From contig NZ_CP075171.1 of assembly GCF_021379005.1 (NCBI RefSeq), forward strand, positions 2,976,001 to 3,040,000: DNA of 64,000 bases, given 5' to 3'. Under the pieces are notes generated by a model, which ran no database searches, was not told where the DNA came from, and worked only from the letters and a program-made list of their open reading frames with translations. The stretch is from Leptodesmis sichuanensis A121. GTDB taxonomy: Bacteria > Cyanobacteriota > Cyanobacteriia > Leptolyngbyales > Leptolyngbyaceae. The translations under genes and the position numbers were made by a program. Below are positions 18,237 to 42,376 of the stretch, piece after piece (positions within the stretch are counted from its first letter, which is position 1; each line of letters starts with the position of its first letter).

Positions 18237-18473
18237 ATGGACGCTGAGAAAAAAGCCCAAATTCAAGCCCATGCTCGTGCCCTTGCCGCTCTGCTGTACG
18301 AGGAAACCGACCCGGAGCAAGTAAAAACATTAGCAGGGATTGAGGTAGCAGTAAGAGGGCATCTGCTGGAACACGTCGGTCCAGAACTCGGGGATTTTTT
18401 ATTGCAACAAGCAGCGGCACCACAAGTGGACGAAAGCGCAGCCTCGACAGTATCGTCGGACGACTGCACTTGA
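18237..18473 (+). CDS. ISKra4-type transposase, ORF A (copy A)
   Basis: 78 residues, helical N-terminal region of the transposase (start MDAEKKAQIQAHARALAALL). Its stop overlaps the start of ORF B as TTGA. The -1 frame already reads SLDSIVGRLHLSEK before ORF B's TTG, so a -1 frameshift near 18440-18470 would fuse both ORFs into one protein. Confidence 0.8.
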   Translation: MDAEKKAQIQAHARALAALLYEETDPEQVKTLAGIEVAVRGHLLEHVGPELGDFLLQQAAAPQVDESAASTVSSDDCT

Positions 18474-19297
18474 GCGAGAAACAGGCACAAATTCTGGAGG
18501 TGAAAGCCTACACACGCTGGAGTCCTTACCTGGAGCAGTGTTGTTTGTTGCTCAGTGCCAACGAGTCGTATGAGCGAGCGGCAGAAGACATCGAAGTGTT
18601 GACTGGGGTGAAGGTTACTCACAGCACTCAACAACGATTAGTCCATCGTCAAACCTTCGAGTTACCGCAAGTGGCAGGAGTGGTTGAGGAGATGAGTGTA
18701 GACGGCGGCAAAGTACGATTGCGAACCCCTCAAGGACAACCGAGTGAATGGCGAGATTACAAGGGGGTGAATCTGCACGAGTGCTGTGTGGCTGCTTTTT
18801 TCCAGGATAACGAGCAATTGGTTAACTGGGTCAACCCTCAACCCTTGTCTGACCCGCTCACTTGCTTAGGAGATGGGCACGATGGGATCTGGAATATTTA
18901 TGCCCAGATCGGCACCACGACCCAAAGACGGGAGATTTTGGATTGGTATCACCTCATCGAGAATTTGGGCAAGGTGGGTGGTTCCCAGCAACGTTTAGCG
19001 GTGGTGGAAGCCTGCTTGTGGCAGGGCGATGTCGAGGGAGCGATCATCCAGTTTGAGGATTGGCAACACGAGCGGGTTGCGACTTTCATTGCCTATCTCA
19101 ACAAGCATCGACAGCGGATTGTCAACTATGGCTATTATCAAGCCGAAGGCATTTCCATTGGTTCTGGTGCAATTGAATCAACGGTCAAACAAGTCGGGCG
19201 GCGCGTCAAGATATCGGGGGCGCAGTGGGAAAAGGGTAACGTACCACAGGTGCTGAAGCAACGCTGTGCTTACCTTAATGGGCAATTCTCAAAATGA
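18470..19297 (+). CDS. ISKra4-type transposase, ORF B (copy A)
   Basis: 275 residues with the catalytic motifs of the family: MSVDGGKVRLRTP, CLGDGHDGIWN, REILDWYHL and GSGAIESTVKQVGRRVKISG. It begins at a TTG overlapping the ORF A stop and is probably translated as a frameshift fusion with it. It differs from the copy at 37231-38064 by lacking a two-residue IL insertion before DWYHL. Confidence 0.87.
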   Translation: MSEKQAQILEVKAYTRWSPYLEQCCLLLSANESYERAAEDIEVLTGVKVTHSTQQRLVHRQTFELPQVAGVVEEMSVDGGKVRLRTPQGQPSEWRDYKGVNLHECCVAAFFQDNEQLVNWVNPQPLSDPLTCLGDGHDGIWNIYAQIGTTTQRREILDWYHLIENLGKVGGSQQRLAVVEACLWQGDVEGAIIQFEDWQHERVATFIAYLNKHRQRIVNYGYYQAEGISIGSGAIESTVKQVGRRVKISGAQWEKGNVPQVLKQRCAYLNGQFSK

Positions 19298-24343: not shown

Positions 24344-24562
24344 ATGGCCGTTGAAAAAGTAAACTCCTCCTCCAGTCTGGCTGAAGTCGTCGATCGCATT
24401 CTGGACAAGGGAATTGTTGTGGATGCCTGGGTACGAGTGTCCCTGGTTGGGATTGAATTGCTGGCGATCGAAGCTCGTGTCGTGATTGCGTCAGTAGAAA
24501 CCTACTTGAAGTATGCAGAAGCTGTTGGCCTGACCGCTCAAGCCGCCGTTCCTGCTGCCTAA
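24344..24562 (+). CDS. gvpA: Gas vesicle structural protein GvpA
   Basis: 72 residues with the highly conserved GvpA sequence: [20 protein letters not shown], then [20 protein letters not shown] and [13 protein letters not shown]. GvpA forms the ribs of the gas-vesicle shell that gives buoyancy. An AGAGGAAAT ribosome site precedes the ATG. It heads the gvpACNJ gene run; a hairpin after it may cut down transcription into gvpC. Confidence 0.95.
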
Positions 24563-24652: not shown

Positions 24653-25435
24653 ATGTCCTTAAAAGAGTCCTGGCAGTTAGCAAAGCAGCAGCGCCAACAG
24701 GCCGTGATTGAGCGCCAGCAAGCTGTTCAACACCTGTTATCAGACATGAAACAGGCTCGTCAACTGAAGGCAATAGCCCTCCAGAGTGATCTGGATACCT
24801 TCGTACAAACCCTAAAGCACCAGACGGCAGAGTTCCTCTCCAACACTACTGCAGAGCGAGTCCTGATCACTCAACACGTTGAAGTGCTGCGATCGGACGT
24901 GCAAAGCTACCTGTACGAACTCGAAACCCAACGGCAGCAACGGGCTAAACAACTGTGGCAGGACTTACAAGCAAGCCGAGCAGAACGCGAAATTGAGATG
25001 CAGCAACGCTTCAACCGCCTCTTAGATTTTCGTATCGAATTACAGCATTTCCACCAAACTCTACATGATTACGTTTGGGGAACTGGAACATCTCCTGACA
25101 CCCCAAAATCATCCCTTCCTAAAAGCCCGACTAAATCACGCTCCACTCGCCCTCCTCAGTCCACCCAATCCGTAGCGACTGTTAAACCTGCCCCTGCCTC
25201 TAAGACCACCAAAAAACCCGCTATAGAAGCAGTTCAGACGAACACTTCCACCCCGGCGGATTCCGAAAAAGCGGTTTACGCCTTCCTGCACGAAAGCCAG
25301 GGAGCCAGACTCACCCAAATTGAAGCCGCTCTCAATCTGAACCGCTTTCAAGCCGTCGATGCCTTGCGATCGCTGATCAAAAAAGGACTGGTTACGCAAC
25401 GCGATCGGGTTTATTTGTTGCAAGAAAGTGTTTAG
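24653..25435 (+). CDS. gvpC: Gas vesicle protein GvpC with a winged-helix-like C-terminal extension
   Basis: 260 residues. The first ~150 are helical and GvpC-like: the repeat hallmark QTAEFLSNTTAERV is visible once clearly, with diverged neighbours, and the stretch ends FRIELQHFHQTLHDYVWG like the GvpC C-terminus. GvpC coats and stiffens the vesicle. A Pro/Ser/Thr/Lys-rich linker (about 150-200) then leads to a 53-residue globular tail (AVYAFLHESQGARLTQIEAA ... RDRVYLLQ) resembling a winged helix. The same tail ends GvpN. The tail is not part of classical Anabaena GvpC. Confidence 0.8.
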   Translation: MSLKESWQLAKQQRQQAVIERQQAVQHLLSDMKQARQLKAIALQSDLDTFVQTLKHQTAEFLSNTTAERVLITQHVEVLRSDVQSYLYELETQRQQRAKQLWQDLQASRAEREIEMQQRFNRLLDFRIELQHFHQTLHDYVWGTGTSPDTPKSSLPKSPTKSRSTRPPQSTQSVATVKPAPASKTTKKPAIEAVQTNTSTPADSEKAVYAFLHESQGARLTQIEAALNLNRFQAVDALRSLIKKGLVTQRDRVYLLQESV

Positions 25436-25489
25436 TCAGTCATTTCTTAATTCTTAATTTCCCACTCCACCCCATCCGAGGTTCCCACC

Positions 25490-26722
25490 GTGACTACCAT
25501 TCTCCGCACCAGCCCCCGTCGATTTGTCAGCACTCCCGCCATCGAACGAGTTGTAGCCCGTGCTCTGCGTTATCTACAATCCGGCTTTTCAGTTCACCTG
25601 CGCGGCCCCGCCGGAACTGGCAAAACTACCCTGGCGCTGCACCTGGCGGATCTGCTGGCCCGTCCCCTGATGCTGATTTATGGCGATGATGAATTCAAAA
25701 CCTCTGACCTGATTGGCAACCAAACGGGATACACTCGCAAGAAAGTTGTGGATAACTACATTCACAGTGTCGTCAAGGTAGAAGATGAACTGCGGCAAAA
25801 CTGGGTAGATTCACGTCTGACACTGGCCTGCAGAGAAGGATTCACCCTGGTCTATGACGAATTCAACCGTTCTCGCCCAGAAGTGAATAATGTTTTGTTA
25901 TCGGCTCTGGAAGAAAAACTTCTGGTTCTCCCTCCCAGCAACAACCGGAGTGAGTATTTGCGAGTTAATCCTCATTTTCGGGCTATCCTGACCTCGAACC
26001 CGGAAGAGTACTACGGTGTTCATGAAACTCAGGATGCCTTGATGGATCGGCTGATTACGATCAATATTCCTGAACCGGATGAACTGACACAGCAAGAAAT
26101 TTTGGTACAGAAAACAGAGTGCGATCGCATCAGTGCCCTGCTGATTACCCGTCTGGTGAAATCTTTCCGGCAGAAAACAGGCTCAGAAAAAACATCGGGC
26201 CTACGCTCCTGTTTAATGATTGCCAAAGTGTGTCAGGAGCACGACATTATTGTCGGTGGTGAAAACCCCGATTTCCGAGATATTTGTGCAGATATTCTGT
26301 TGTCCCGGTCATCCCTTTCCCTGGAAGACGCAACCAGAGCCTTGTGGGAAGTCTTGAATGATGTGATCCGGGATGGCCTGGAAACTCTTGTGCCTGAACC
26401 TGCGCTTGATCCCCTTCCCCAGCCTACCCCTGTGTCAGCAGCGACGATCGCGCATACCCTGGAACTTCTAGAAGCTGATGCAGGGCTAACGCCTCCAAAT
26501 ATTCGTGATAGCGAATCTGTCTTGTCTGCAACTACCAAAATTCCTTACGAAACCGAAATTCTGTCTCTACTAAAGCAAACGCAGGGAGCCAAACTCACAG
26601 AAATTGAAAAAGCACTCAAACTCGATCGCTTCCAAACCGTAGACTCCCTGCGTCAATTAACAGAACAGGGTAAAGTCACCCAACGTCATCGTCTGTATGT
26701 CTTGCAGGAGAATGCATTATGA
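25490..26722 (+). CDS. gvpN: Gas vesicle ATPase GvpN with the same C-terminal tail as GvpC
   Basis: 410 residues from a GTG with GAGG nine bases upstream. It is an AAA+ MoxR-type ATPase: Walker [13 protein letters not shown] (about 39-50), Walker B region [17 protein letters not shown], sensor [10 protein letters not shown] and arginine-finger region [10 protein letters not shown]. GvpN is needed for vesicle growth to full size. After a Pro-rich linker, residues about 355-408 form the tail [20 protein letters not shown] ... HRLYVLQ shared with GvpC. Its stop overlaps the gvpJ start (ATGA). Confidence 0.9.
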
Positions 26723-27171
26723 CGGCAACTCAGGCAACCAAAGGCTTTTCTACCTCTGCCCTATCTACCAAAGATGCTTCCCGGAGTATTCCAACTTCGA
26801 CAATGAGTTCCAGTCTCGCCGATGTACTGGAGCGTGTCCTAGATAAGGGCATTGTCATTGCAGGCGATGTCTCCGTTTCTGTTGCCAATACAGAACTACT
26901 CAATATTCGTATTCGCCTCCTGATTTCTTCGGTAGATAAAGCCAAAGAAATGGGCATCAATTGGTGGGAAAATAACCCCCATTTCAGCGCTCAAACTCAG
27001 AATCTGCTGGAAGCGAATCAGCAACTGTTGCAACGGGTTGAAAGCCTGGAAGCTGAACTGAAAAGCCTGCGATCGCTCCCTGCCAGTGCGTCACATCTCG
27101 CCTCTTCAGAAGTCGATGATGGGGCTGATCTCTCCCTCGAAACCTGGAGCCAGGAGCTTTTGGGGCTTTAA
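26719..27171 (+). CDS. gvpJ: Gas vesicle protein GvpJ
   Basis: 150 residues. Residues about 29-85 are GvpA-like ([20 protein letters not shown], then [20 protein letters not shown]), followed by [15 protein letters not shown], which marks GvpJ rather than GvpA. A coiled-coil tail ([20 protein letters not shown]) ends the protein. GvpJ is a minor component thought to cap or nucleate the vesicle. It starts within the gvpN stop. No gvpK, F/L, G, V or W follows in the window. Confidence 0.9.
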
Positions 27172-29988: not shown

Positions 29989-30388
29989 AATGTGACCAAT
30001 GAAAAAGAGCCAACAAACGAACCAGACCTGCTAACACAACTTTTACCACCGAGTTACATAAGCCCCTGATGGCAGCGGACGCTTTTTTGATTTTCCCAAC
30101 ACAATAAGCCGAAAAGATAGGAAATGAATAGGAAGTTGGTTCTGCCGATCGTAATTTCACTCAAGGGGGTTAAAGCCGCCTGTAACCTTGAGGCACCTCC
30201 AATTCCAGTCGTAAAGAGCACGCTGCCTGCTTCCCCAATCCTCGATATGGCGGCGGCTTAAACTGGCATTGTCATGTGGCACTCCACTAGATATAGTGGT
30301 AGACGATTCAAATTCAAAACAGATGGTGCAAAGGTAGAGCTTTGATCCCACAAAACTCTTAGTCTGCTTATGGGTGGAGGGAGCGGCA
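29989..30388. other. Intergenic region between divergent lctP-like and PP-loop genes
   Basis: No gene supported. It should contain both promoters. GGAGG at 30376-30380 is the ribosome site of the plus-strand gene. Confidence 0.5.
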
Positions 30389-31585
30389 ATGAGAACACTC
30401 AGTCTATTTGACGAAGAGCGGCTGTCACTGCCCAAAGCGATCGCGCTGTCGATTGAATCCCTGCAACACTACGGCTCGTTCTACCAGCATTGGGCGATCG
30501 CCTTCTCTGGCGGCAAAGATTCCTCTGCAACTGTCACCCTCATCGCCAATCTGATCGAGAAAGGTCAGATCCCCAGACCGGAGAGCCTGACAATCCTCTA
30601 CGCCGATACCCGTCAAGAACTGCCCCCACTTCACCTGGCAGCAATGGGCATTCTCAAGGAACTGGAGCAGCGAGGATTTGACACCCGTGTGGTCTTGCCG
30701 GATCTGGACTACCGCTACTTTGTGTATATGCTGGGTCGGGGCGTGCCGCCGCCATCCAATACGTTCCGCTGGTGTACGCCCAAGCTGAAGGTGATGAGCA
30801 TGGAGCGGGAACTAGAGAAACTCCGGGAGGAGCGAGGCGAAAAGTTTTTGATGTTGACGGGTGTCCGCATGGGCGAGAGTGCAGCTCGGGATCAGCGAAT
30901 TGCCATTAGCTGCACGAAGGATGGGGGGGAGTGTGGTCAGGGTTGGTTCCAACAGAGTGCTTCGGGGGCGATTGCGGATATCCTGGCCCCCATTGTTCAC
31001 TGGCGGGTCTGTCATGTGTGGGACTGGTTGCTGCAAGCGGACTTGGATCTGGGCTTCCCCACCTTGGAAATTGCCAAAGTCTATGGGCAGGATGTCAGTG
31101 ATGGCGAGGAACCGCTGAATGCCCGGACGGGCTGTATCGGTTGTCCTCTGGTGCAGAAGGATGCTGCCCTCGATCGCGTGATTGCTCAACCGGAGTGGGT
31201 ATATTTGGCCCCCTTGCAGAAACTTAGACCTCTTTACTGGGAAGTCAAGAAACCTCAGTATCGCCATCGAAAGCATGGTGAGGTCAATAAGGATGGTCGC
31301 TTGACCGTGAAACAGGGGAGGCTTGGTCCTTTAACCCTGAGCACTCGACGCTGGATGCTGGCAGAAGTTTTGGCAATCCAGGATGAGGTGAATGAGGCGG
31401 CAATCGCACAGAATCGTCCCCCGATCAGCCTGATCAATGACGAGGAACTGGCCCGAATTGAAGAATTAATAGCAGCCAGTACTTATCCTGAAAAATGGGA
31501 TGGCTCAGAGCCAACAGGTGATGTCATGCTGCCTGAGATTTTTCCCGATGGGAGTGTGCAGCCGTTGTTGTTTGAGCAGTGGTGA
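30389..31585 (+). CDS. DndC-like PP-loop (PAPS reductase family) protein
   Basis: 398 residues from the ATG at 30389, which has GGAGG eight bases upstream (an ATG at 30374 lies before that site). ATP-pyrophosphatase PP-loop FSGGKDSSAT at 39-48, RWCTPKLKV, TGVRMGESAARDQRI and a C-terminal cysteine pair GCIGCPL. The layout is that of PAPS reductase/DndC sulfurtransferases, which activate a substrate with ATP and pass on sulfur. It stands alone on the plus strand and converges with dndE. It is clearly different from the DndC at 34849-36459, so it is either an accessory phosphorothioation enzyme or an unrelated PAPS-reductase-family protein. Confidence 0.75.
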   Translation: MRTLSLFDEERLSLPKAIALSIESLQHYGSFYQHWAIAFSGGKDSSATVTLIANLIEKGQIPRPESLTILYADTRQELPPLHLAAMGILKELEQRGFDTRVVLPDLDYRYFVYMLGRGVPPPSNTFRWCTPKLKVMSMERELEKLREERGEKFLMLTGVRMGESAARDQRIAISCTKDGGECGQGWFQQSASGAIADILAPIVHWRVCHVWDWLLQADLDLGFPTLEIAKVYGQDVSDGEEPLNARTGCIGCPLVQKDAALDRVIAQPEWVYLAPLQKLRPLYWEVKKPQYRHRKHGEVNKDGRLTVKQGRLGPLTLSTRRWMLAEVLAIQDEVNEAAIAQNRPPISLINDEELARIEELIAASTYPEKWDGSEPTGDVMLPEIFPDGSVQPLLFEQW

Positions 31586-31671
31586 AGGGGGGAGGGGTTG
31601 GCTAGAAAAGATTCTGTGGAGCCGAAGTATTTCAAGAAACTGGCTGATGGAAAATATGGACTTCGAGAAGG

Positions 31672-32067
31672 TTAAGTTCTTGGAGGTGTTAATGATACTG
31701 CAACCAGGTCTTCAATCTTTTTAATGTTTGGATCGCCTGCTAAATAACCAATTCCACGGTGTAGATGGAGGCGGAATTGAGTGGCGAGGGTTTCTCGATC
31801 GATTGGTAAGCCGTCATTATAACAGCGTTGTTTGAGGGCGATGAGCAGGAGGTCGGCCATTTCACCGCCGAAGGTTGGCCAGGTCATTTCGACATTACTA
31901 TCGCCTGGAATGGGAACAGGGGAGGGCGGTGTCGGTTCTGCTAAGGAGCGACAGAGTGCCCAACGACAAAGGATGTTCCACTGATCGATTTTGGTAACAC
32001 GCTTGAGTTTGATCAGTTGGTCTTTGGCGGATTGGGAGAGTTTGATGCGATCAATTGGTGGTTCCAT
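31672..32067 (-). CDS. dndE: DNA phosphorothioation protein DndE
   Basis: 131 residues matching DndE: RIKLSQSAKDQLIKLKRVTK, WNILCRWALCRSLAEP, DSNVEMTWPTFGGEMADLLL and FRLHLHRGIGYLAG. DndE is a small basic protein that tetramerises and binds nicked DNA in the Dnd sulfur-modification complex. It lies 37 bp after dndD and is the last gene of the dndC-xisH-xisI-dndD-dndE operon. Confidence 0.93.
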   Translation of the reverse strand: MEPPIDRIKLSQSAKDQLIKLKRVTKIDQWNILCRWALCRSLAEPTPPSPVPIPGDSNVEMTWPTFGGEMADLLLIALKQRCYNDGLPIDRETLATQFRLHLHRGIGYLAGDPNIKKIEDLVAVSLTPPRT

Positions 32068-32104
32068 AGGAGCGAAGCAAAGGGGTGAAGAAGCGGTGAT
32101 AAGG

Positions 32105-34099
32105 TTACGCTTTGAAGGGGAAGTAGCCAGGTATGATTTTAGTTTGTTGGTTGGTTGAATTGTATTGAAGTAAATATTCGCGGGCGATCGCGCCTTTACT
32201 CCTTAACCCCTCCACCTCTTCACATCCAATCTCTGTATCTGTAGACAGCAGGATCATTTGATGACTGGCCTGGGGGAAGTACTGGTCAATCAGGTTTCGG
32301 CGATGGCTGGAGTCGAGGCGGCTGAGAGGAGTATCGATCGCAATGGGAAGGTGGCGGTTGCTGACGCTGGCCAGTGCCCACAGGAAGGCGATTGCCAGGA
32401 GTTGTTTTTCTCCGGCAGAGAGGCGATGTTTGGGGATGGGTTGACCTGCAGTGTCGTAAAGGGTGAGGCTGAAGCTCTGTTGATCCACGATGATGCGGTG
32501 GACGAGGTGGGATTTATGCAACAGGCAGCGGAAGTAGTTGGTGATACTGGCTTCCAGGTCGTTGAGTTTTTGCAGGGTGAGGCGCGATCGAAAAGCTTGC
32601 AGAGTCTGTTGGGCACGGCTGGCCGCTTTGAGAAAATCGTCGTTATCTTGCTGCTGGATGTACTGGTCGGTATATCGCTTCAGATCGGCTTTGGTCGCTT
32701 CAATCGCCTGTCGTAGTTTGAGACTTTGGCGGTGGCTCTGTTCGAGTTTATACAGGCATTCATCGTGATGAAGTTGGGCTTGGTCGCGATGGGATCGCAG
32801 GCGATCGTAGTCTTCTGGGGAGGGAGCCGCTTGCAGTTTGAGGATGAGGGCTTCGATGGAGGTGGTGAGGTGGGTGAGGTGAGTGAGGTGGGTGTGGGTG
32901 AGGTGGAGTTGGCTGGGAATCTGATGGGTGAGGGCGTGGGCGAGGGTATCGAGGGTTTCGGGATCGGCATCAAGCCAGGAGTCCGCGGAGGAGGCTTCGA
33001 TCAGACGCTGGGTTTCTTGCTGCAGGAAGGCTTGAATTTTCTGGGTTTGGGTGCGATTGAGTTTGAGGGTTTGGATCAGGTCGAGGAGGCGTTGATCTCG
33101 CTCGGCAATCAGGTCAGAGGCAGCCTGGGCCTGCTGCCGACGCAGTTCCAGGTGGCCTTGTTGCTGGGCCTGTTGCAATAGGGGTTGGACGATCGCCAGG
33201 GGCAGGCAGTCTGCGGCCAGGTGGCGGAGATTCTGACGCTGGTGTTCGGCTTCAGTGCAGAGGGTTTGCAGTTGGCGATCGAGTTCGGGGGCAGATTCGG
33301 CCAGGGTGCCACCTTCGGCCTCGAATTGCAGTTGGGCTTCCCGGAGATGGGTTTCTGCAATGTTCAGTTCTTCCTGGAGGGCTTTCAGACGCTGTGCTTC
33401 AGCTTCCAGGTCGGTTTGGTGCTGGGTCAGCCGCTGGGCGATCGCATCGAGTTGCTGGCGGTCTTCGCCTCTGGCAAGTTCTCGTTGTTTCTGGTTAATT
33501 AAAATTTCCAGGTGATTGGCGAGGCGATCGGGCAGTTCCAGGCCAAGGACGGCACGAATCGCAGTGGTGACGCTGGGGGGTGGGGTGTCTTGTTGGGTCA
33601 GGTCTTTGATCTGCTCGCCATCAAATAGAAACAGATTAGACAGTCCCAGGGGGAGCCAGCTTTCGACGCGCTCATCCCAGGTTTCGGTGAGGGTGCGATC
33701 GGCCCAACCGTCGAGAAAGACCTGAAGTTTCTCTTTGCCTTTGCGGTTCCAGGTACGCTGGACGCGAATTTCAGCGAGTTTATCGATGTTGCTGAGGCGA
33801 ATGACGTGTTGGAAGGTGAGTTCGATGGTGGCAGAGGCATCGGCGGGAGCGTGGCTACAGACACATTGACTAAGAAAGTCGCTGTAGGATTGGTTTTTCT
33901 TGCGGCGATCGATCTGGGCACGCTGACCGTAGAGGGCGAGGCGGATGGCATCCATGAGGGAGGTTTTGCCGCCCCCGTTTAAGCCTCCAATCAGAATAAT
34001 GGGGCGGGTTCCCTCGCTGCTATTCGTGGGCTGCAGGTTGAGGGTATGCCGTCCTTTGTAGGAGTTGAAGTTTTCAAGGGTCAGTTCTTGAAAAATCAT
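32105..34099 (-). CDS. dndD: DNA phosphorothioation ATPase DndD
   Basis: 664 residues, the usual DndD length. SMC/RecF-like: Walker A GGLNGGGKTSLMDAI (about 38-52), FLFDGEQI, two long coiled-coil arms, signature LSAGEKQLLAIAF, and Walker B LPIAIDTPLSRLDSS. DndD is thought to nick or remodel DNA for sulfur insertion with DndC and DndE. Residues about 385-413 read QLHLTHTHLTHLTHLTTS, encoded by a G-rich GGTGAGGTGGGT-type tract that also occurs elsewhere in this island. It starts right before the xisI stop on the same strand. Confidence 0.93.
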   Translation of the reverse strand: MIFQELTLENFNSYKGRHTLNLQPTNSSEGTRPIILIGGLNGGGKTSLMDAIRLALYGQRAQIDRRKKNQSYSDFLSQCVCSHAPADASATIELTFQHVIRLSNIDKLAEIRVQRTWNRKGKEKLQVFLDGWADRTLTETWDERVESWLPLGLSNLFLFDGEQIKDLTQQDTPPPSVTTAIRAVLGLELPDRLANHLEILINQKQRELARGEDRQQLDAIAQRLTQHQTDLEAEAQRLKALQEELNIAETHLREAQLQFEAEGGTLAESAPELDRQLQTLCTEAEHQRQNLRHLAADCLPLAIVQPLLQQAQQQGHLELRRQQAQAASDLIAERDQRLLDLIQTLKLNRTQTQKIQAFLQQETQRLIEASSADSWLDADPETLDTLAHALTHQIPSQLHLTHTHLTHLTHLTTSIEALILKLQAAPSPEDYDRLRSHRDQAQLHHDECLYKLEQSHRQSLKLRQAIEATKADLKRYTDQYIQQQDNDDFLKAASRAQQTLQAFRSRLTLQKLNDLEASITNYFRCLLHKSHLVHRIIVDQQSFSLTLYDTAGQPIPKHRLSAGEKQLLAIAFLWALASVSNRHLPIAIDTPLSRLDSSHRRNLIDQYFPQASHQMILLSTDTEIGCEEVEGLRSKGAIAREYLLQYNSTNQQTKIIPGYFPFKA

Positions 34100-34432
34100 C
34101 TAACCAGCCGCATAGTCAGTAAATTGACGCATAAAGGGAGGGTGAAAGCCAAGAACGATGTCTTGTTTAGGAACACCAAGGGCGACCAGTTCGGCAGCGA
34201 TGTCATCTTCTGTCCCATTCCATTGAATCCAAATTTTATTGTCTTTAATGTCTAAATGCAGCACAGGGCCGAAGATGCGGCGTTTGTTGTGCCAACCAAT
34301 GTAGATGAGTTGATAGTGATCGTGTACTGGATCAAACAGCGTTTGAGCTTCCACTTCTTGATCACCACCACGTTTTGCTTTTTCCATCAGCAAATTTTGA
34401 ATATATTCTCGATACTGATCTACGCTTGCCAT
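34100..34432 (-). CDS. xisI: XisI-like protein
   Basis: 110 residues with the XisI pattern (YREYIQNLLMEKAK, YQLIYIGWHNKRRIFGPVLH, KIWIQWNGTEDDIAAELVAL, IVLGFHPPFMRQFTDYA). XisI was defined in Anabaena as a factor controlling excision of the fdxN element, but XisH/XisI pairs are spread widely in cyanobacteria with unclear roles. It overlaps xisH by 13 bp and abuts dndD, so it is part of the dnd operon here. Confidence 0.92.
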   Translation of the reverse strand: MASVDQYREYIQNLLMEKAKRGGDQEVEAQTLFDPVHDHYQLIYIGWHNKRRIFGPVLHLDIKDNKIWIQWNGTEDDIAAELVALGVPKQDIVLGFHPPFMRQFTDYAAG

Positions 34433-34839
34433 TGCACGATCTCCTCCTGTTCAACGTCATACACTAAAAGCTTGAGTTGACTACGACGAATGATGGATTG
34501 AATAAAGGAAAGTTTAAAGAAGTCGTTGTAAACAGTTTGAGGAACTGCAAGATACAAGATTCGCTCTGGGTCTTCCTCTTCTAAAGCATAGCGATAGTTG
34601 ATAAATTGACCGATCGCTAGGTGAAATTCAGAAATTGTGGATGCCCCAATAAAGCTTTTGATTTCAACGGCTATTTTTTGTTCATCTTTCTGAGCAGCGA
34701 TAATTTTTTCTGCTCCTAGATCAATGTACATATCAATTACACCTCCGATCCGGATGTGCAGTGGATCATCTGTAATCACCCATCCGTCTTTCTCCAGCGC
34801 GGTTCTAACCACATGATGAAATATATCTTTAGCAGCCAT
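34420..34839 (-). CDS. xisH: XisH-like protein
   Basis: 139 residues typical of XisH: KDIFHHVVRTALEKDGWVIT, DPLHIRIGGVIDMYIDLGAE, IAVEIKSFIGASTISEFHLA and a Leu/Ile-rich C-terminus. The D...E-x-K pattern (DMYIDLGAE ... VEIKSF) is that of a PD-(D/E)XK nuclease fold. It lies 9 bp after dndC and overlaps xisI, so it is co-transcribed with the dnd genes. Confidence 0.92.
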   Translation of the reverse strand: MAAKDIFHHVVRTALEKDGWVITDDPLHIRIGGVIDMYIDLGAEKIIAAQKDEQKIAVEIKSFIGASTISEFHLAIGQFINYRYALEEEDPERILYLAVPQTVYNDFFKLSFIQSIIRRSQLKLLVYDVEQEEIVQWQA

Positions 34840-34848
34840 TTCTTGCCT

Positions 34849-36459
34849 CTACCCCTCTACCTCCTCGTCAGTCTTCTCTCCAAACTTCATCTCTGCCCAT
34901 CTCGAAATTTGTTTAACGGCTTCAATGTCCCCATCTTGGACGGCTTGTTTCATATTACGATCGCGGTGTGCGGCTTGAATTGCGATTTCTTTATCACGCG
35001 AACTGGTATCAAAACATTTTTTTAGGTCTTTGAGAATGCCAGAACGGTTAGAAAGAAGTTGATATTGACGTTCAGTATCAAGCAGTTTTGTCATCAATTC
35101 GAGATGCATAGAATCCCCTTCGCAGAGTTCTTCAAGGAGCTTCCATTCATCAATTCCTAAAAAGTCTTGTTTAGAAGTAGGGCGAGGGTCATTGAAGACT
35201 TCACCTGTAACTTCACGATAGATACGAGGTAAAGAATCATCAAACTCATGCTTCTCTTCACGCCAAATACGGCGAATTTCACTCAGTTCATTGATTGAAA
35301 TTAGTTGAATATCTTTCATCTCTTGTGGTGCATTTTGACGAGCCAACTTTTGAGCTTGCAAAACTCGCCTTAACCATTCCTCGCGCCAATATTTTGTGTA
35401 GGGCCCTGGAATTGGAATAACTTCTGTTGATTTTTTTTCTGTACTGCGCTCAAAGAGTTGAACTCGTCCTGTCATACGCCGAAAATCACGACGATCGTGA
35501 TCATCATAGACATCCAGTTCATTACGCAAATCTAGTAGAGGTTGCATCCATTCTTTTTCCGCATCATTCTGGATCATGGCTGCCATCGATTTGTCTTCAC
35601 TGATTAACGTACAAACCCAGCAACCGAATCTGGAATCACCACAACTGGGAGTTGAAGTATCAATCACAAAAGGACATTCGTTATCAGCGGTAGCTCCTCG
35701 ATACATTGAAAAAAGTTCTTTGTTACTATGGTCCCAGGGATTTCGCCACTGCATAAGATATAACCAAACTTCATCATCTCGCCAGTCTTCGATCGGGCTG
35801 TAGATGAGAGAACCCGGTAATGGCCCCCGGTAAAGCACCGAACCTTTAAATTTGTCACTATTTTCGGGGTTGAGAAGATCGTTGACATTCCCAGTTCTAT
35901 GTTTTGCCATAACCCCTGCACGCCTACTGCTCTCTGCTTTGCGAGTGCCCAAGGTAATAATGACTTCACCAGTGCTACGAACTACGTCATTGATAAAACG
36001 ATTGGATGGCCAAATCTTCAATCTTTCAGTACACCATCGGAACATATGACGGGGAGCGGGATACCCCTTACCAATCAAGTTCACCCAAAAGGTATCCTTC
36101 ACTTCGGGATAAAGCAAGTGAGGTTCGAAGGGTAGATTTTGCTCTTGAGCCGCCACCTTCATGCGATCAAGCGATTGACGAACCCAGGTAGCGACGATCG
36201 GGTTTTCTACGAGCGTATCTGTCGTAAGGACATAGATTGGTTTAGTTCGCTTATTGACAGGGATTTTAGCGATCGCATTCCAAACCAACTGTAGAACGGC
36301 AGAAGAGTCCTTCCCTCCTGAATAACCAACTACCCAAGGAATTTTATCAAGACAATACAATGCCTGAATTTCGGTCATCAGGTTTTTGATATCCTCGACT
36401 AGCTCCGGAACTGTCCGGCGAGCGTTTTGAGGCGTTTCTAGTTGCTCAGTCATTGCCAT
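34849..36459 (-). CDS. dndC: DNA phosphorothioation sulfurtransferase DndC
   Basis: 536 residues. PP-loop SGGKDS at 47-52, MFRWCTERLKIWPS, ITLGTRKAESSRRAGVM, and four cysteines (262, 273, 280, 283) in ECPF and CGDSRFGCWVC that match the [4Fe-4S] ligands of DndC. DndC activates the DNA backbone or sulfur carrier with ATP and inserts sulfur with DndD and DndE. It is the first gene of the tight minus-strand operon; the start ATGGCAATG is at 36459. No dndA is present, so a housekeeping cysteine desulfurase must supply sulfur. Confidence 0.94.
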   Translation of the reverse strand: MAMTEQLETPQNARRTVPELVEDIKNLMTEIQALYCLDKIPWVVGYSGGKDSSAVLQLVWNAIAKIPVNKRTKPIYVLTTDTLVENPIVATWVRQSLDRMKVAAQEQNLPFEPHLLYPEVKDTFWVNLIGKGYPAPRHMFRWCTERLKIWPSNRFINDVVRSTGEVIITLGTRKAESSRRAGVMAKHRTGNVNDLLNPENSDKFKGSVLYRGPLPGSLIYSPIEDWRDDEVWLYLMQWRNPWDHSNKELFSMYRGATADNECPFVIDTSTPSCGDSRFGCWVCTLISEDKSMAAMIQNDAEKEWMQPLLDLRNELDVYDDHDRRDFRRMTGRVQLFERSTEKKSTEVIPIPGPYTKYWREEWLRRVLQAQKLARQNAPQEMKDIQLISINELSEIRRIWREEKHEFDDSLPRIYREVTGEVFNDPRPTSKQDFLGIDEWKLLEELCEGDSMHLELMTKLLDTERQYQLLSNRSGILKDLKKCFDTSSRDKEIAIQAAHRDRNMKQAVQDGDIEAVKQISRWAEMKFGEKTDEEVEG

Positions 36460-36540
36460 CTCACTTTAGAGAGCGGGGACTTCTGTTTATTTTTGTGTAG
36501 AAGTGCCATTAAAGAAGCATTTCTCTACAAAGCTTTAGCT

Positions 36541-36795
36541 TTACGAACGATGCAGAATGTAGCGCCGAAGTAAGCGAATATACTCACCTGGGCTGCCCGT
36601 AGATTGAGGCTTGCTCCACTCGTTAACCTCAGCGAAACCTCGACGATGCAGGTCATAGATAATTCCTGTAATGCCATCCAGGGAACCAATTACACAAATC
36701 TGAACAACCTCACGTTCAGAAGATGAAGGCAAAGCATCAGATGCGGGAACTTGACTCGCTGCTTGCACGTTTATCAGAAAGTTTTGGATGAGCAT
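36541..36795 (-). CDS. Small conserved-type cyanobacterial protein, unknown function
   Basis: 84 residues from the ATG at 36795 (MLIQNFLINVQ); a longer frame to 36882 would run into the neighbouring promoter repeats and is less likely. The sequence REVVQICVIGSLDGITGIIY, then HRRGFAEVNEWSKP, resembles small cyanobacterial proteins of unknown function. It lies 81 bp upstream of dndC on the same strand, so it may be the first gene of the dnd transcript, and is divergent from the XRE regulator. Confidence 0.6.
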   Translation of the reverse strand: MLIQNFLINVQAASQVPASDALPSSSEREVVQICVIGSLDGITGIIYDLHRRGFAEVNEWSKPQSTGSPGEYIRLLRRYILHRS

Positions 36796-36821
36796 TGGAG
36801 ACAGAATTACTTGAATAACAC

Positions 36822-36850
36822 TTGCATAGTAGTCAACCCTGGGGTATACT
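36822..36850 (+). promoter_or_regulatory. Sigma-70-type promoter of the XRE regulator
   Basis: TTGCAT (36822-36827), a 17 bp spacer and TATACT (36845-36850), pointing toward the XRE gene at 36932. The spacer carries GTCAACCCTGGGG, a diverged copy of the repeats just downstream. Confidence 0.6.
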
Positions 36851-36894
36851 GTCAACCAATAGGGAACCATAAAAACTGTCAACCAATAGGGAAC
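36848..36894. promoter_or_regulatory. Twin operator-like direct repeats
   Basis: The 20-mer ACTGTCAACCAATAGGGAAC occurs exactly at 36848-36867 and 36875-36894 (27 bp period). A partial third copy lies at 36831-36843 inside the promoter spacer. The position over and after the promoter suits autoregulation by the adjacent HTH protein, and possibly control of the divergent dnd side. Confidence 0.65.
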
Positions 36895-36905
36895 GCTATG
36901 AAAAA

Positions 36906-36930
36906 CCCCAATCCTCTGTCAGGATTGGGG
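36906..36930 (+). promoter_or_regulatory. Perfect hairpin ending one base before the XRE start codon
   Basis: CCCCAATCCT (36906-36915), loop CTGTC, AGGATTGGGG (36921-36930), then C and ATG at 36932. The stem would sequester the only AGGA-like ribosome site, so translation should depend on opening it. Confidence 0.6.
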
Positions 36931-36931
36931 C

Positions 36932-37171
36932 ATGGGAAAAGCAGGTCAAGTTCTCAAGCAAGTGCTGGAGACTCACAACATTACTCAATACAAGCTAGCG
37001 AAAGTTATGGGTATTCAACGTAACAACGTATCTAGATGGGTTCGTGAAGAACGGGAGCTAACTGCTGAGAATGTTTTAAACATTGTTAGGGCATTGAAGC
37101 AGATCGACCCAGTTGCAGCCCAATCATTCGTGGATGCTTATTTAGTTGACGAGCTACAAAGTAAAGATTAA
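36932..37171 (+). CDS. XRE-family HTH transcriptional regulator
   Basis: 79 residues, essentially a single helix-turn-helix: VLKQVLETHNITQYKLAKVM, GIQRNNVSRWVREERELTAE, NVLNIVRALKQIDPVAAQSF. It is likely a small dimeric repressor. It is transcribed away from the dnd operon behind a promoter with repeated operators. The right flank of the gene is cut 35 bp downstream by the ISKra4 copy B. Confidence 0.82.
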   Translation: MGKAGQVLKQVLETHNITQYKLAKVMGIQRNNVSRWVREERELTAENVLNIVRALKQIDPVAAQSFVDAYLVDELQSKD

Positions 37172-37230
37172 TCTATACCGTCAAACTCTTGTAGAGTGAG
37201 GTAATTGAGTGCATCCCAGTTTTGTAAGAC

Positions 37231-38064
37231 TCATTTTGAGAATTGCCCATTAAGGTAAGCACAGCGTTGCTTCAGCACCTGTGGTACGTTACCCTTTTCC
37301 CACTGCGCCCCCGATATCTTGACGCGCCGCCCGACTTGTTTGACCGTTGATTCAATTGCACCAGAACCAATGGAAATGCCTTCGGCTTGATAATAGCCAT
37401 AGTTGACAATCCGCTGTCGATGCTTGTTGAGATAGGCAATGAAAGTCGCAACCCGCTCGTGTTGCCAATCCTCAAACTGGATGATCGCTCCCTCGACATC
37501 GCCCTGCCACAAGCAGGCTTCCACCACCGCTAAACGTTGCTGGGAACCACCCACCTTGCCCAAATTCTCGATGAGGTGATACCAATCCAAAATCAAAATC
37601 TCCCGTCTTTGGGTCGTGGTGCCGATCTGGGCATAAATATTCCAGATCCCATCGTGCCCATCTCCTAAGCAAGTGAGCGGGTCAGACAAGGGTTGAGGGT
37701 TGACCCAGTTAACCAATTGCTCGTTATCCTGGAAAAAAGCAGCCACACAGCACTCGTGCAGATTCACCCCCTTGTAATCTCGCCATTCACTCGGTTGTCC
37801 TTGAGGGGTTCGCAATCGTACTTTGCCGCCGTCTACACTCATCTCCTCAACCACTCCTGCCACTTGCGGTAACTCGAAGGTTTGACGATGGACTAATCGT
37901 TGTTGAGTGCTGTGAGTAACCTTCACCCCAGTCAACACTTCGATGTCTTCTGCCGCTCGCTCATACGACTCGTTGGCACTGAGCAACAAACAACACTGCT
38001 CCAGGTAAGGACTCCAGCGTGTGTAGGCTTTCACCTCCAGAATTTGTGCCTGTTTCTCGCTCAA
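37231..38064 (-). CDS. ISKra4-type transposase, ORF B (copy B)
   Basis: 277 residues, identical to copy A's ORF B except for an added IL directly before the catalytic DWYHL, caused by a tandem repeat of GATTTT around 37585-37600. The related element at 40285-41163 lacks the IL, so the insertion is the derived state and may impair catalysis. Confidence 0.85.
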   Translation of the reverse strand: MSEKQAQILEVKAYTRWSPYLEQCCLLLSANESYERAAEDIEVLTGVKVTHSTQQRLVHRQTFELPQVAGVVEEMSVDGGKVRLRTPQGQPSEWRDYKGVNLHECCVAAFFQDNEQLVNWVNPQPLSDPLTCLGDGHDGIWNIYAQIGTTTQRREILILDWYHLIENLGKVGGSQQRLAVVEACLWQGDVEGAIIQFEDWQHERVATFIAYLNKHRQRIVNYGYYQAEGISIGSGAIESTVKQVGRRVKISGAQWEKGNVPQVLKQRCAYLNGQFSK

Positions 38065-38297
38065 GTGCAGTCGTCCGACGATACTGTCGAGGCTGCGCTT
38101 TCGTCCACTTGTGGTGCCGCTGCTTGTTGCAATAAAAAATCCCCGAGTTCTGGACCGACGTGTTCCAGCAGATGCCCTCTTACTGCTACCTCAATCCCTG
38201 CTAATGTTTTTACTTGCTCCGGGTCGGTTTCCTCGTACAGCAGAGCGGCAAGGGCACGAGCATGGGCTTGAATTTGGGCTTTTTTCTCAGCGTCCAT
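38061..38297 (-). CDS. ISKra4-type transposase, ORF A (copy B)
   Basis: 78 residues, identical to ORF A of copy A. It overlaps ORF B by TTGA, as there. Confidence 0.8.
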   Translation of the reverse strand: MDAEKKAQIQAHARALAALLYEETDPEQVKTLAGIEVAVRGHLLEHVGPELGDFLLQQAAAPQVDESAASTVSSDDCT

Positions 38298-38394
38298 TGG
38301 AGTTATCGGCTAAAGGTGGAATGCTCAAAGTTTAGCGTTGTCTCCCAAACATAGCCCTAAGCACTTATACTCATCGCAAATGTGGGATGCACTC

Positions 38395-39036
38395 ATCCTC
38401 CCCACATATCCACGCTCACCTCTTCAACTTTTGCACGCACCTCTATGGGCTGCTGCTTCAGGGTTTCAATAATGTCTTCCTGTTGGTGACTGTCAATCAC
38501 TTCAATCAATTTCCCGGCCTCAACGTCGCCGATAACGGTGGCGAAGTTTTGATGCCCTTTCCGCTTGCTGATTTCATCAATCCCAATGCGTTTGACTCCT
38601 GCCCATCCCGTGTTTTTTTCTGTGCATACTGATGCTTGAAAATCCCTTCAATGCGCTCAAAGCTTAATCCTTCTACGCGACCCACTTGCTCCATACTTGA
38701 CAGTTGTACTTGCTGGTAAATATGCTCCTCATAGCGTCGAGTGTACTGCCGTCCTGCATCCATAAATGTCAATGACTCAGTAAAATAACGTTGGCAATCA
38801 CGACAATAAAACTGACGACGAGGAATTTTCAAATAAGTGACTTGGCCAAAAATCGATAGGTCTCGAATCAAAATCGGACGGTTTTGATGCAACTCTGAAC
38901 TTAATTTCTTACAGTGTGGACAGCTAGATTCTTGATTGAGCAAGCGCAACTTTAAGTACACTTCATTGTCTTTTTGAATGCAACTTTCAACCGTAACGTG
39001 AGGGAAGTTAAGCAATCTATCAAGATGTATGTCCAT
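38395..39036 (-). pseudogene. ISL3 transposase fragment (copy 1)
   Basis: N-terminal 176 residues in one frame: zinc-binding HTH region (SSCPHCKKLSSEL, FYCRDCQRYF) up to a run of seven A at 38613-38619. There the sense continues in the -1 frame (GIDEISKRKGH ... VEEVSVDMWGG) until the insertion boundary. The C-terminal catalytic part is lost. Confidence 0.8.
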
Positions 39037-39099
39037 TGGCGCAATCCCTGACTGAAAGTATCATATTATACGATTTTCACCCCGGATCCGGAAGAGCCT
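38395..39099 (-). mobile_element. ISL3-family element, truncated copy 1
   Basis: The 5' end GGCTCTTCCGGATCCGGGGT (complement of 39080-39099) is a typical ISL3 terminus. The transposase starts at 39036. The element is cut at 38395 by ISKra4 copy B, after the codons for VDMWGG. It lies head to head with copy 2, whose sequence begins at 39100, so copy 1 seems to have inserted into copy 2. Confidence 0.82.
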
Positions 39100-40057
39100 A
39101 AGAAATTAAGTTCAGAGTTGCATCAAAACCGTCCGATTTTGATTCGAGACCTATCGATTTTTGGCCAAGTCACTTATTTGAAAATTCCTCGTCGTCAGTT
39201 TTATTGTCGTGATTGCCAACGTTATTTTACTGAGTCATTGACATTTATGGATGCAGGACGGCAGTACACTCGACGCTATGAGGAGCATATTTACCAGCAA
39301 GTACAACTGTCAAGTATGGAGCAAGTGGGTCGCGTAGAAGGATTAAGCTTTGAGCGCATTGAAGGGATTTTCAAGCATCAGTATGCACAGAAAAAAACAC
39401 GGGATGGGCAGGAGTCAAACGCATTGGGATTGATGAAATCAGCAAGCGGAAAGGGCATCAAAACTTCGCCACCGTTATCGGCGACGTTGAGGCCGGGAAA
39501 TTGATTGAAGTGATTGACAGTCACCAACAGGAAGACATTATTGAAACCCTGAAGCAGCAGCCCATAGAGGTGCGTGCAAAAGTTGAAGAGGTGAGCGTGG
39601 ATATGTGGGGAGGATTCCCAAAGGTAGTCAAGAAAGTGTTTCCCAATGCCGTGGTAGTGATTGACCGCTTTCATGTCATGAAATTAGTCAATGAGGAGTT
39701 AAATAAAATTCGTAGACAATCGGGTGTATCAGACCGAGGTAGCAAATTCATTTTGCTCAAGAATGGCAAGGATTTAACAGCAGAAGAAAAGACAAAGTTA
39801 GAAGAGATTCTGAAACGGTCAAAGCGATTAGGAAAAGCCTATGAGTGGAAAGAAGAGTTTCGCGCGATTTATGAACAACCATTAACCGTTGAGGAAGGCA
39901 AGCGTCAGATCCAAGGGTGGCTCGATCAAGCGCGAGTCGTCTATAGTGAAGCAAGCACAACAATTCGTAACCATTTAGATGGGATTAGCAACGGGAGCGT
40001 GTCACCTTTTGGGGAGAAAAATGAGCATAGAGATAGGTCTCTTTCTCTATCAGCAGT

Positions 40058-40276
40058 ATGACTCCAGAACAACAACAGGAACTTGAACAACATGTCGCGC
40101 GGATCGCTCAAATTCTGCACCAGGACGCACAAGCTCAAGGTCTGCCGATGAGTTCGTTAGCCGAGATTGAAGCGACGGTGAGAGAGCAGATGCAAGTCCA
40201 TGTGTCGCCACAAATCGGTATTTTTTTATCGACCAGGTCAGTCCCCCGCACGTCGGAGCCTATGAACGAAGCGTAA
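40058..40276 (+). CDS. ISKra4-type transposase ORF A (element C)
   Basis: 72 residues, helical N-terminal segment (LEQHVARIAQILHQDAQAQG). The last codons overlap in another frame with AYERSVKSILGALKLTRA, the true lead-in of ORF B, so a frameshift fusion is expected. Confidence 0.75.
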   Translation: MTPEQQQELEQHVARIAQILHQDAQAQGLPMSSLAEIEATVREQMQVHVSPQIGIFLSTRSVPRTSEPMNEA

Positions 40277-40284
40277 AGAGTATT

Positions 40285-41163
40285 TTGGGAGCGTTGAAGT
40301 TGACACGAGCGCAAGCACTGGCGCTAGAGGTCAAACCCAGTAGCCAAATCAGTCCATACCTGGAGATGTGCTGCTTACGAGCCAGTGCAAATGCCTCCTA
40401 CCGGGAGGCGGCAGCAGAAGTCGCAATCATGACTGGCATCAAAGTCAGCCTGAAGACCCAGCAACGCATCGTGCATCGCCAAGACTTTAGCCCTCCAGAG
40501 GGCGACAGAGCCGTTGAGGTCAACCAAATGAGTTTGGACGGGGGCAACATTCGCCTAATCACCCCAGCCGGAAAACCGAGCCAATGGCGACAGTACAAAG
40601 CCTTGCGGGTGAATGGGGATGGTGTTGGGGTAGCTTATTACCAAGCCAATGACCAACTGTGTCAATGGGTGGAAACCTTAGTGACAGCGACCCTGTTGTA
40701 TTGTCTAGGGGACGGACATCCGGGAATTTGGGGAGTGTATGCTCAAATGCAGTTGAGTAGCCCACGCCGGGAGATTTTAGACTGGTATCACCTCAAGGAA
40801 AACCTATACAAAGTGGGTGGGTCGCTCAAACGCTTGCAGGAGGCAGAAACTCTGTTGTGGCAAGGCAAGGTGAATGAGGTGTTAGCTTTGTTTGATGCGT
40901 TGAACAAACCCCAAGCGCATAAATTCTGCGACTATTTGCGGACTCACCAAGACCGGATTCCCAACTATGAATATTACCAGAGCGAAGGCATTCCAATTGG
41001 TTCTGGGGATGTCGAGTCATGGGTCAAACAGATTGACCGTCGCACTCAAATTTCCGGTGCTCAATGGAGAGAAGATCATGTTCCTCAAGTGCTGGCTCAT
41101 CGATGTGCTTATTTGAATGGTCAACTTGACCCTACTTCCCCCATTTCTCTCTCAAAAAAGTGA
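40285..41163 (+). CDS. ISKra4-type transposase ORF B (element C)
   Basis: 292 residues with MSLDGGNIRLITPAG, CLGDGHPGIWG, REILDWYHLKENLYKVGGSL and GSGDVESWVKQIDRRTQISG. Intact catalytic motifs; probably made as a fusion with ORF A. Confidence 0.85.
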   Translation: MGALKLTRAQALALEVKPSSQISPYLEMCCLRASANASYREAAAEVAIMTGIKVSLKTQQRIVHRQDFSPPEGDRAVEVNQMSLDGGNIRLITPAGKPSQWRQYKALRVNGDGVGVAYYQANDQLCQWVETLVTATLLYCLGDGHPGIWGVYAQMQLSSPRREILDWYHLKENLYKVGGSLKRLQEAETLLWQGKVNEVLALFDALNKPQAHKFCDYLRTHQDRIPNYEYYQSEGIPIGSGDVESWVKQIDRRTQISGAQWREDHVPQVLAHRCAYLNGQLDPTSPISLSKK

Positions 41164-41400
41164 CACGCTCCCATTAGCAACTACTTTCGGAATCGCACAA
41201 CGAGTGGCGCAATGGAGGGAATCAACAACCGAATTAAATTGATTAAACGGCAAGCTTATGGCTTTGTCAATTTCAACAATTTTCGAGAAAGACTATTAGC
41301 CTGCTTCTCTGATTAAATAAAGTTATCACAGTACTAACGGGAGAACCAGACGGATTAACACTAACAAACTAGCACAGGAGAACTGAAACGTGTTTATTCT

Positions 41401-41862
41401 TTAAAGAAAACTAAGGTCAAGCAACTCATCAGAAGCATTTAAGCGGTTTTTCTCTGCAGTTAACAGCAATTGTATTTGCTTAGTGTAGTCGCTCGAACCC
41501 CTTAATGCTTCCTGCATAATCTCAAGTCCACCATTAGCATAACTCTCGAAAATTTCGATTCGCTTTCGCTGTAGCTCTTCGTTGTTACTTAAAATTTTGG
41601 GATCTTTAGTGTGGGTAATGGCTAGGAGATTAATCGTTTGGTCATGTCCCCTGGAAATGAAATGTTCTTGTGGAATGGGATCAGGATCTTTTTTTGAGGC
41701 TTCTGAAACAGGAATATACTTTCCTCGCTTTGCTCCCAGCGTTGCCGCAAATGCCATCACATCAACATAAGTCTGAAACAATCCCGTTGAACCTTCGCCT
41801 GTTCTTAGGGCTTTGACCAGTTTTGCTTTATCTTTGGCAACCTTAATGCGGATGTCGGCCAT
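41401..41862 (-). CDS. DNA phosphorothioation-associated protein 4
   Basis: 153 residues from the ATG at 41862 (MADIRIKVAKDKAKLVKALR). The pattern FQTYVDVMAFAATLGAKRGK, then INLLAITHTKDPKIL and RIEIFESYANGGLEIMQEAL, matches the family annotated as dnd system-associated protein 4; function unknown. The open frame extends upstream to 41991 only through a Pro/His-rich stretch made by G-rich repeats, so that longer start is rejected. Its presence ties the second gene run to the Dnd system. Confidence 0.85.
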   Translation of the reverse strand: MADIRIKVAKDKAKLVKALRTGEGSTGLFQTYVDVMAFAATLGAKRGKYIPVSEASKKDPDPIPQEHFISRGHDQTINLLAITHTKDPKILSNNEELQRKRIEIFESYANGGLEIMQEALRGSSDYTKQIQLLLTAEKNRLNASDELLDLSFL

Positions 41863-41865
41863 TGG

Positions 41866-41950
41866 GGGGTGAGGGGTTAGGTGGGTGGAGAGGTGGGGGA
41901 GTAGAGGGGTGGAGGGGTGGAGGGGTGGGTGGGTAGGTGGGGGAAGGGGC
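41866..41950. repeat. G-rich GGTGGGT/GGGTGGAG tract
   Basis: About 85 bp of degenerate G-rich units (GGTGGGTGGAGAGGTGGGGG, GGGTGGGTGGGTAGGTGGGG). It separates the broken vapC from the phosphorothioation-associated gene and could fold as a G-quadruplex. Confidence 0.8.
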
Positions 41951-42037
41951 GATCGCGTTTGCCCAGGCATGATGGCGATCGCGCCTATCAACCAGGGCCA
42001 CTAAAGGACCTGTATCCAGTAAAACTTGTCTTTTCAC
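41950..42037 (-). pseudogene. VapC-type PIN toxin fragment
   Basis: The first 26 residues MKRQVLLDTGPLVALVDRRD and RHHAWA are the start of a PIN-domain toxin, including the first catalytic Asp (LLDTGP). After that the frame enters the G-rich repeat tract and reads Pro/His/Ser only. The rest of the PIN domain is missing. Its start overlaps the antitoxin stop. Confidence 0.75.
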
Positions 42038-42270: not shown

Positions 42271-42345
42271 GGGGGAGTGGGGGAGTGGGGAGGGGAAGTG
42301 GGTCGGTGGGTGAAGGAGTGGAGAGGTGGGGGGGGAGGGATAGAG
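42270..42345. repeat. G-rich tract upstream of vapB
   Basis: About 75 bp of GGGGGAGTGGGGGAGTGGGG and GGGTCGGTGGGTG-like units between hepT and vapB, the same composition as the other tracts of the island. Confidence 0.75.
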
Positions 42346-42376
42346 GGATTAGGGCGGAATATTATTGGGGTGGATT

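Follow-up and report, generated by a model that had tools for sequence, protein, structure and literature searches.

GvpC lies along the ribs of the gas vesicle through its repeats (PMC10185304; PMC10903477), and GvpN is an ATPase needed for growth of the vesicle beyond small bicones (PMC7204071; PMC11445434). In haloarchaea, the globular C terminus of GvpC binds GvpC, GvpN, GvpO, and other Gvp proteins by split-GFP, and a possible interference of GvpN and GvpO with GvpC dimers is reported for Halobacterium (PMC9372576; PMC9501494). In cyanobacteria, a study of Planktothrix noted that the C terminus of GvpC40, a 40-kDa GvpC of nonplanktic strains, matches Planktothrix GvpN at 64% identity over 28 residues and is 78% similar over 60 amino acids to the C terminus of GvpC from Geitlerinema PCC 7407; planktic strains have a shorter GvpC, and no domain was named (PMC5259702, Pancrace et al. 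2017). Here, we describe a winged-helix-like domain of approximately 55 residues at the C terminus of both GvpC and GvpN from Leptodesmis sichuanensis A121 and follow it through the cyanobacteria.

RESULTS

GvpC and GvpN of L. sichuanensis share a C-terminal domain

The genome of L. sichuanensis A121 is complete (5.35 Mb) and groups with the Leptolyngbyaceae. The stretch analyzed here, a 64,000-nucleotide window of this genome, contains gvpA, gvpC, gvpN, and gvpJ in that order, all on the + strand. The first of these, gvpA (24344..24562), encodes a shell protein of 72 amino acids (PF00741, 60.7 bits), and gvpJ (26719..27171) encodes a member of the GvpA family (PF00741, 61.1 bits) without the tail described below. 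The coat protein gene gvpC (24653..25435, 260 amino acids) lies between gvpA and gvpN, as in related loci. Its product matches the GvpC model TIGR02641 in three stretches, corresponding to 33-residue repeats, with 27.0 bits against a cutoff of 18.8, and is therefore assigned to GvpC; its score against the Pfam model PF01304 (14.6 bits) falls under the cutoff of 21. The gvpN gene (25490..26722) begins with a GTG start codon and encodes a AAA+ ATPase of 410 amino acids that belongs to the GvpN family by its score against TIGR02640 (397.5 bits; curated cutoff, 266.8).

Outside the gvpACNJ cluster, the other gvp genes of the genome are dispersed (loci L119, L206, and L207), with gvpK at 1.53 Mb (G000:C1 1529520-1529918) and two gvpF/L genes at 1.10 and 3.22 Mb (1098387-1099103 and 3215240-3215833). 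A GvpK-GvpA fusion in this genome was considered as an oddity and set aside, as cyanobacterial GvpK proteins generally have it. In the window, the gvp genes are bracketed by two nearly identical transposase-like ORFs that lie approximately 18 kb apart and point in opposite directions (18470-19297 and 37231-38064). The window also holds a DNA phosphorothioation island (30374-49287), comprising two DndC-like proteins, DndE, two DndD/PbeC-like ATPases, and a PbeA-like helicase, the parts of which are separated by transposase genes.

A sequence-only reading of the window had proposed that GvpC and GvpN carry the same C-terminal tail (25240-26720), agreeing at about 29 of 52 positions, and both the count and the coordinates proved right. 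A BLASTP comparison gave one strong match between residues 198 to 259 of GvpC and residues 349 to 408 of GvpN, with 32 of 62 positions identical and 47 of 62 similar (E = 2e-16). When the tails were aligned without gaps, 30 of 55 positions agreed; the best of 20,000 shuffles reached 13. An iterated profile built from the tails scored 94 bits against residues 205 to 255 of GvpC, and a search of the whole genome with the tail found the GvpC and GvpN copies to be the only convincing ones.

In GvpC, the tail (amino acids 205 to 259; 25265..25429) was delimited by AlphaFold2 (AF2), the TrmB model PF01978, and the tail profile. It follows a helical repeat region (approximately amino acids 1 to 143; 24653..25081), which was assigned from the TIGR02641 stretches and from the position of a VWG motif at its end, and a flexible linker (approximately amino acids 144 to 204; 25082..25264), which was assigned from its composition, its linker statistics, and the lack of a family match. 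This linker, which had been described as Pro rich, is enriched in Pro, Ser, Thr, and Lys, and the mean Pro content of GvpC linkers from related loci is 17%. In GvpN, the AAA+ core (amino acids 12 to 273; 25523..26308) was identified with TIGR02640 and AAA_5 and is followed by a linker modeled mostly with low confidence (approximately amino acids 296 to 350; 26375..26539) and the tail (amino acids 351 to 408; 26540..26713), which was placed by AF2 and by BLASTP against the GvpC tail. Because the match to TIGR02640 covers only residues 12 to 273 of the 410, the GvpN tail lies outside the known GvpN model.

Both tails are predicted to adopt a winged-helix fold

The initial description of the tail as winged-helix-like was borne out by AF2, which predicted three helices followed by a beta hairpin wing (H-H-H-E-E) in both proteins. 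With an alignment of 90 tails as input, the GvpC tail was modeled with a pLDDT of 92.2, with helices at tail positions 3 to 17, 22 to 29, and 33 to 45 and strands at 49 to 52 and 55 to 58. The same order of elements appeared in the full-length model of GvpN, with helices at residues 354 to 364, 369 to 376, and 380 to 392 and strands at 396 to 399 and 402 to 405. In this model, which was built from a small alignment and in which the AAA+ core was modeled poorly in places, the pLDDT was 94 to 97 over residues 351 to 400 and 43 to 73 per block of ten in the linker. Both tails are thus predicted to be compact domains and not random coil.

A Foldseek search with the tail model gave no match below 1e-3, as expected for a query of only 62 residues. 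The top-ranking Foldseek entries and the VIA-align comparisons were winged-helix proteins (Z-alpha, MarR, IclR, ScpB, and others), and VIA-align to winged-helix chains gave Z scores up to 11.5 with an rmsd of 1.1 to 2.5. By profile, the GvpC tail matched PF01978 (TrmB) with 26.4 bits when taken alone (cutoff, 25.6) and 24.3 bits within the whole protein; the GvpN tail scored 17.9 bits, with weaker matches to the same group, and 74 of 90 aligned tails matched TrmB at E ≤ 0.01. The tails thus resemble TrmB and MarR winged helices in both fold and profile (Z of approximately 10 to MarR proteins). However, TrmB regulators carry a C-terminal effector domain, whereas the tail ends GvpC and GvpN with nothing after it, sits on structural and assembly proteins, and is nearly neutral in charge, so it does not belong among the TrmB regulators.

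Z-alpha domains (ADAR1, PKZ, and ZBP1) were among the best structural matches (Z of approximately 11) and gave the best PDB profile match. Z-alpha contacts Z-DNA through an Asn and a Tyr of helix 3 and a Trp in the wing, where the motif is Pro-x-Trp. The contact Asn and Tyr align in the tail with Val (93%) and Arg (92%), and the wing of the tail reads QRDR-Y without Pro-x-Trp. Since these key contact residues are replaced, the tail is not a Z-alpha domain, and we rejected a Z-alpha function for it.

Many, but by no means all, cyanobacterial gvp loci carry the tail

We searched all ORFs of at least 60 codons in the gvp loci of 56 genomes, which are those encoding GvpN among 386 sampled from the phylum, with the iterated tail profile. 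The tail was found on GvpN in 26 of the 56 and on GvpC in 19, amounting to 46 tails, 27 of them on GvpN (from the 26 genomes) and 19 on GvpC. As 30 of the GvpN genomes lack it on GvpN, the tail is not a feature of all GvpN proteins. Whether it also occurs on other gvp products had been raised as a check; none was found in 131 gvp loci, where it was confined to GvpC and GvpN. In some Nostocaceae, a second tailed ORF lies approximately 6 kb downstream of gvpN; it is a tailed gvpC beside its own gvpA.

Further loci came from a scan of named genomes with a GvpN alignment, from which we took the best 80 of 241 loci, a choice biased toward the query; these include Leptolyngbyaceae, Oscillatoria, Nodosilinea, Oculatella, Stenomitos, Nostoc, Sphaerospermopsis, and Arthrospira. 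Outside the cyanobacteria, plasmid-borne GvpN proteins of proteobacteria and haloarchaea matched the query GvpN only within residues 1 to 297, so that in Halobacterium, Methylocella, and other noncyanobacteria on plasmids the ATPase part alone is matched, and the tail profile did not match GvpC or GvpN of Halobacterium and Methylocella.

Two further observations were made in these searches. One locus (L102, genome G255) contains several copies of gvpA and gvpC, and its tailless GvpC proteins of 240 and 172 amino acids lie beside a tailed GvpN; it belongs to the same genus group as two genomes with a tailed GvpC, which resembles the contrast between planktic and benthic Planktothrix. Weak matches to the tail profile in small genomes of the phylum (family f31; L034-L037 and others) are small ORFs of 130 to 175 amino acids that probably encode unrelated winged-helix proteins.

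Going by the text of PMC5259702, the GvpC40 match is in part the same tail, reported there as a sequence match within one genus and not with a fold, a cyanobacterial spread, or losses. The expectation of no known domain common to GvpC and GvpN was therefore nearly right, the exception being this 28-residue match. In the open-license literature, no paper combined gvpC with "winged helix," and the few papers that mention GvpN together with helix-turn-helix, or gas vesicles together with winged helix, seemingly concern other subjects. Within that literature, there appears to be no description of the domain, of how far it extends, or of its losses, and a description elsewhere is possible. The tail is not a general feature already described in all cyanobacterial GvpN and GvpC proteins: many of these lack it, and the literature searched yielded only the 28-residue fragment.

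The GvpC and GvpN tails are separate lineages

In a tree of the tails, which has modest resolution because it rests on few columns, the GvpC and GvpN tails separated with 4 label changes compared with 56 in shuffles, and the starred branches force at most 1. The existence of two separate lineages implies that the duplication is old, and one old duplication would be the simplest reading of this tree. Similarity between the two tails was 44.2% within a genome and 43.0% between genomes, and it was not above that of near relatives (P = 0.38). Gene conversion or a recent duplication in L. sichuanensis was rejected because the two tails belong to these separate old lineages and because their similarity within a genome is hardly raised.

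The GvpC tail is the better kept of the two, as mean identity was 60% among GvpC tails, 41% among GvpN tails, and 43% between the two. Across 81 GvpC tails, the most conserved columns were R (100%), Y (98%), E (98%), Q (97%), R (96%), and D (95%), and conservation extends over the predicted recognition helix and the wing, with its QRDR motif. The net charge of the tail is near zero, with a mean of approximately +0.5. Where GvpN is tailless, the GvpC tail scored a mean of 84.4 bits, compared with 83.4 otherwise. The partial correlation of GvpC- and GvpN-tail distances was weak (0.16, P = 0.016), and the global correlation was also weakly positive.

Several lineages lack the tail or show it in decay. 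When the tail states were placed on a tree of 123 GvpN cores, 69 loci had both tails, 20 had neither, 17 had only the GvpN tail, 11 had only the GvpC tail, and six were unclear. The loci from named genomes overturned the rule, suggested by 19 of 19 cases in the first sample, that a tailed GvpC is always accompanied by a tailed GvpN. From gene order and protein type, the group with neither tail would include clusters like those of Dolichospermum and Microcystis. Behind a shortened gvpN, frameshifted or interrupted tail remnants lie in L083, L091, and L093; inspection by eye shows them in L092 and L107 as well. Tails are also out of frame in gvpC of Arthrospira sp. PCC 9108 (L184), gvpC of L148, and gvpN of L190, the last two of which are from metagenome-assembled genomes and may be assembly errors. 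In the Arthrospira locus, three consecutive gvpA-gvpC units precede gvpN (L184:4612-8881); two of its gvpC copies are short, and the third carries the out-of-frame tail, by frameshift or decay.

Losses of the GvpN tail were approximately four times denser where GvpC is tailless (5 in 2.4 branch units versus 6 in 12.2; rough P = 0.02), an estimate that depends on parsimony, midpoint rooting, and few events, several of which are possibly assembly frameshifts (L190 and L148). A test of correlated loss on independent pairs had only 2 such pairs and no power.

DISCUSSION

The tail is a real, old, and previously glimpsed domain and not a new kind of system. Its fold is shared with DNA-binding domains, which does not reveal its function. 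From the parallel with the haloarchaeal GvpC hub, the near-neutral charge, and the strong conservation, we infer that the tail is a protein-docking module of Gvp assembly and not a transcription factor, a reading toward which we lean slightly. A net charge near zero suits protein binding better than DNA binding, and the conservation of the GvpC tail, including the predicted recognition helix and wing, implies a specific partner. The haloarchaeal parallel is one of plan: GvpC of Halobacterium salinarum likewise consists of helical repeats, a linker, and a compact C-terminal domain of a DNA-binding type. However, its C terminus (L209:1667-2815) is a Ros/MucR-like zinc finger of the Cys2His2 type (28.3 bits; cutoff, 25.4), a family to which the cyanobacterial tail, having no Cys/His pairs, does not belong. 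Haloarchaeal GvpN has no such tail, and haloarchaeal GvpC is dissimilar to the tail profile; by sequence, the two GvpC domains are not homologous, which counts against the docking reading.

As a docking module, the tail would trace back to a small TrmB/MarR-type winged-helix domain that was acquired by an ancestral gvp cluster of the cyanobacteria and came to occupy, each copy behind a flexible linker, the C terminus of both GvpC and GvpN. The helical repeats of GvpC run along the ribs, so that the tails would stick out from the surface of the vesicle and may bind either one another or a Gvp partner in common. Through its own related tail, the ATPase GvpN would dock at these same sites of shell growth or compete for them. 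The tail would adjust assembly and not be essential to it, hence the loss of one or both copies in many lineages. The presence of the same predicted domain in both proteins, the division of the tails into two lineages, the denser loss of GvpN tails where GvpC is tailless, and the weakly positive distance correlations speak for docking. The occurrence of all four combinations of tail states, the undiminished conservation of the GvpC tail beside tailless GvpN, and the lack of a within-genome excess in similarity count against it.

The sequence-only reading had suggested that the tail brings the coat protein and the ATPase together. This may still hold, but an obligate tail-to-tail bridge is weakened by the four combinations and by GvpC tails kept without a GvpN tail. 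Because the GvpC tail is as conserved where the GvpN tail has been lost, the two are not obligate partners, such a bridge is unlikely, and holding the GvpN tail would not be the main purpose of the GvpC tail. A direct heterodimer, in which the GvpC tail binds the GvpN tail one to one and so recruits the ATPase to the coat, is just one of the forms that docking could take and for us a possibility of low probability. It would suit the presence of related domains in the products of adjacent genes, the binding of haloarchaeal GvpN to the GvpC C terminus (PMC9372576), the weak partial correlation of tail distances, and the greater loss of GvpN tails where the GvpC tail is absent. At least one clade, however, combines a fully conserved GvpC tail with a tailless GvpN (L143, L145, L151, L152, L154, L165, L169, and L170), and the reverse, a tailed GvpN with a tailless GvpC, is seen in Nostocaceae and others.

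The persistence of a conserved GvpC tail beside tailless GvpN could instead mean that the tails act only between GvpC molecules, cross-linking them on or between vesicles, as in aerotope packing, with the GvpN copy being vestigial. Dimerization is common among winged helices, haloarchaeal GvpC C termini bind each other (PMC9372576), and GvpN tails both diverge and decay, as seen in their lower mean identity and in the remnants. Yet GvpN tails persist in many lineages, and aerotope abundance and size were alike in Planktothrix PCC 11201, which has GvpC40, and PCC 7805, which has the shorter GvpC, in a comparison of one strain of each kind (PMC5259702). We consider this explanation unlikely.

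Somewhat more doubtful still is binding to nucleic acid, whereby the tails would anchor vesicles and GvpN on the nucleoid or on RNA, or GvpN or free GvpC would serve as an autoregulator. The fold and the best matches (TrmB, MarR, IclR, and Z-alpha) are those of nucleic acid binders, the recognition helix and QRDR wing motif are conserved, and the Ros/MucR match places a DNA-binding-type domain at the end of haloarchaeal GvpC as well. That haloarchaeal domain, however, is known as a protein-binding hub, and the tail itself has almost no net charge, an Asp conserved midway along the recognition helix, and replacements at the positions aligned with the Z-DNA contacts of Z-alpha. It is improbable that cyanobacteria, with a winged helix that is also on GvpN, and haloarchaea, with a Ros/MucR domain, independently gained GvpC ends of a nucleic acid-binding type because their vesicles are tied to the nucleoid or RNA in assembly or inheritance.

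How the GvpN ATPase reaches the growing vesicle and whether GvpC binds regularly are open questions in the field (PMC10903477). A shared, foldable domain of approximately 55 residues on both GvpC and GvpN provides a direct handle, in that it can be expressed, deleted, or swapped. For engineered ultrasound vesicles, the tail would be a natural surface-displayed domain on a flexible linker. The tail seems to have been lost from the most-used systems, Dolichospermum (Anabaena) flos-aquae and Microcystis, and so the view of cyanobacterial GvpC as nothing more than 33-residue repeats may be based on derived members.
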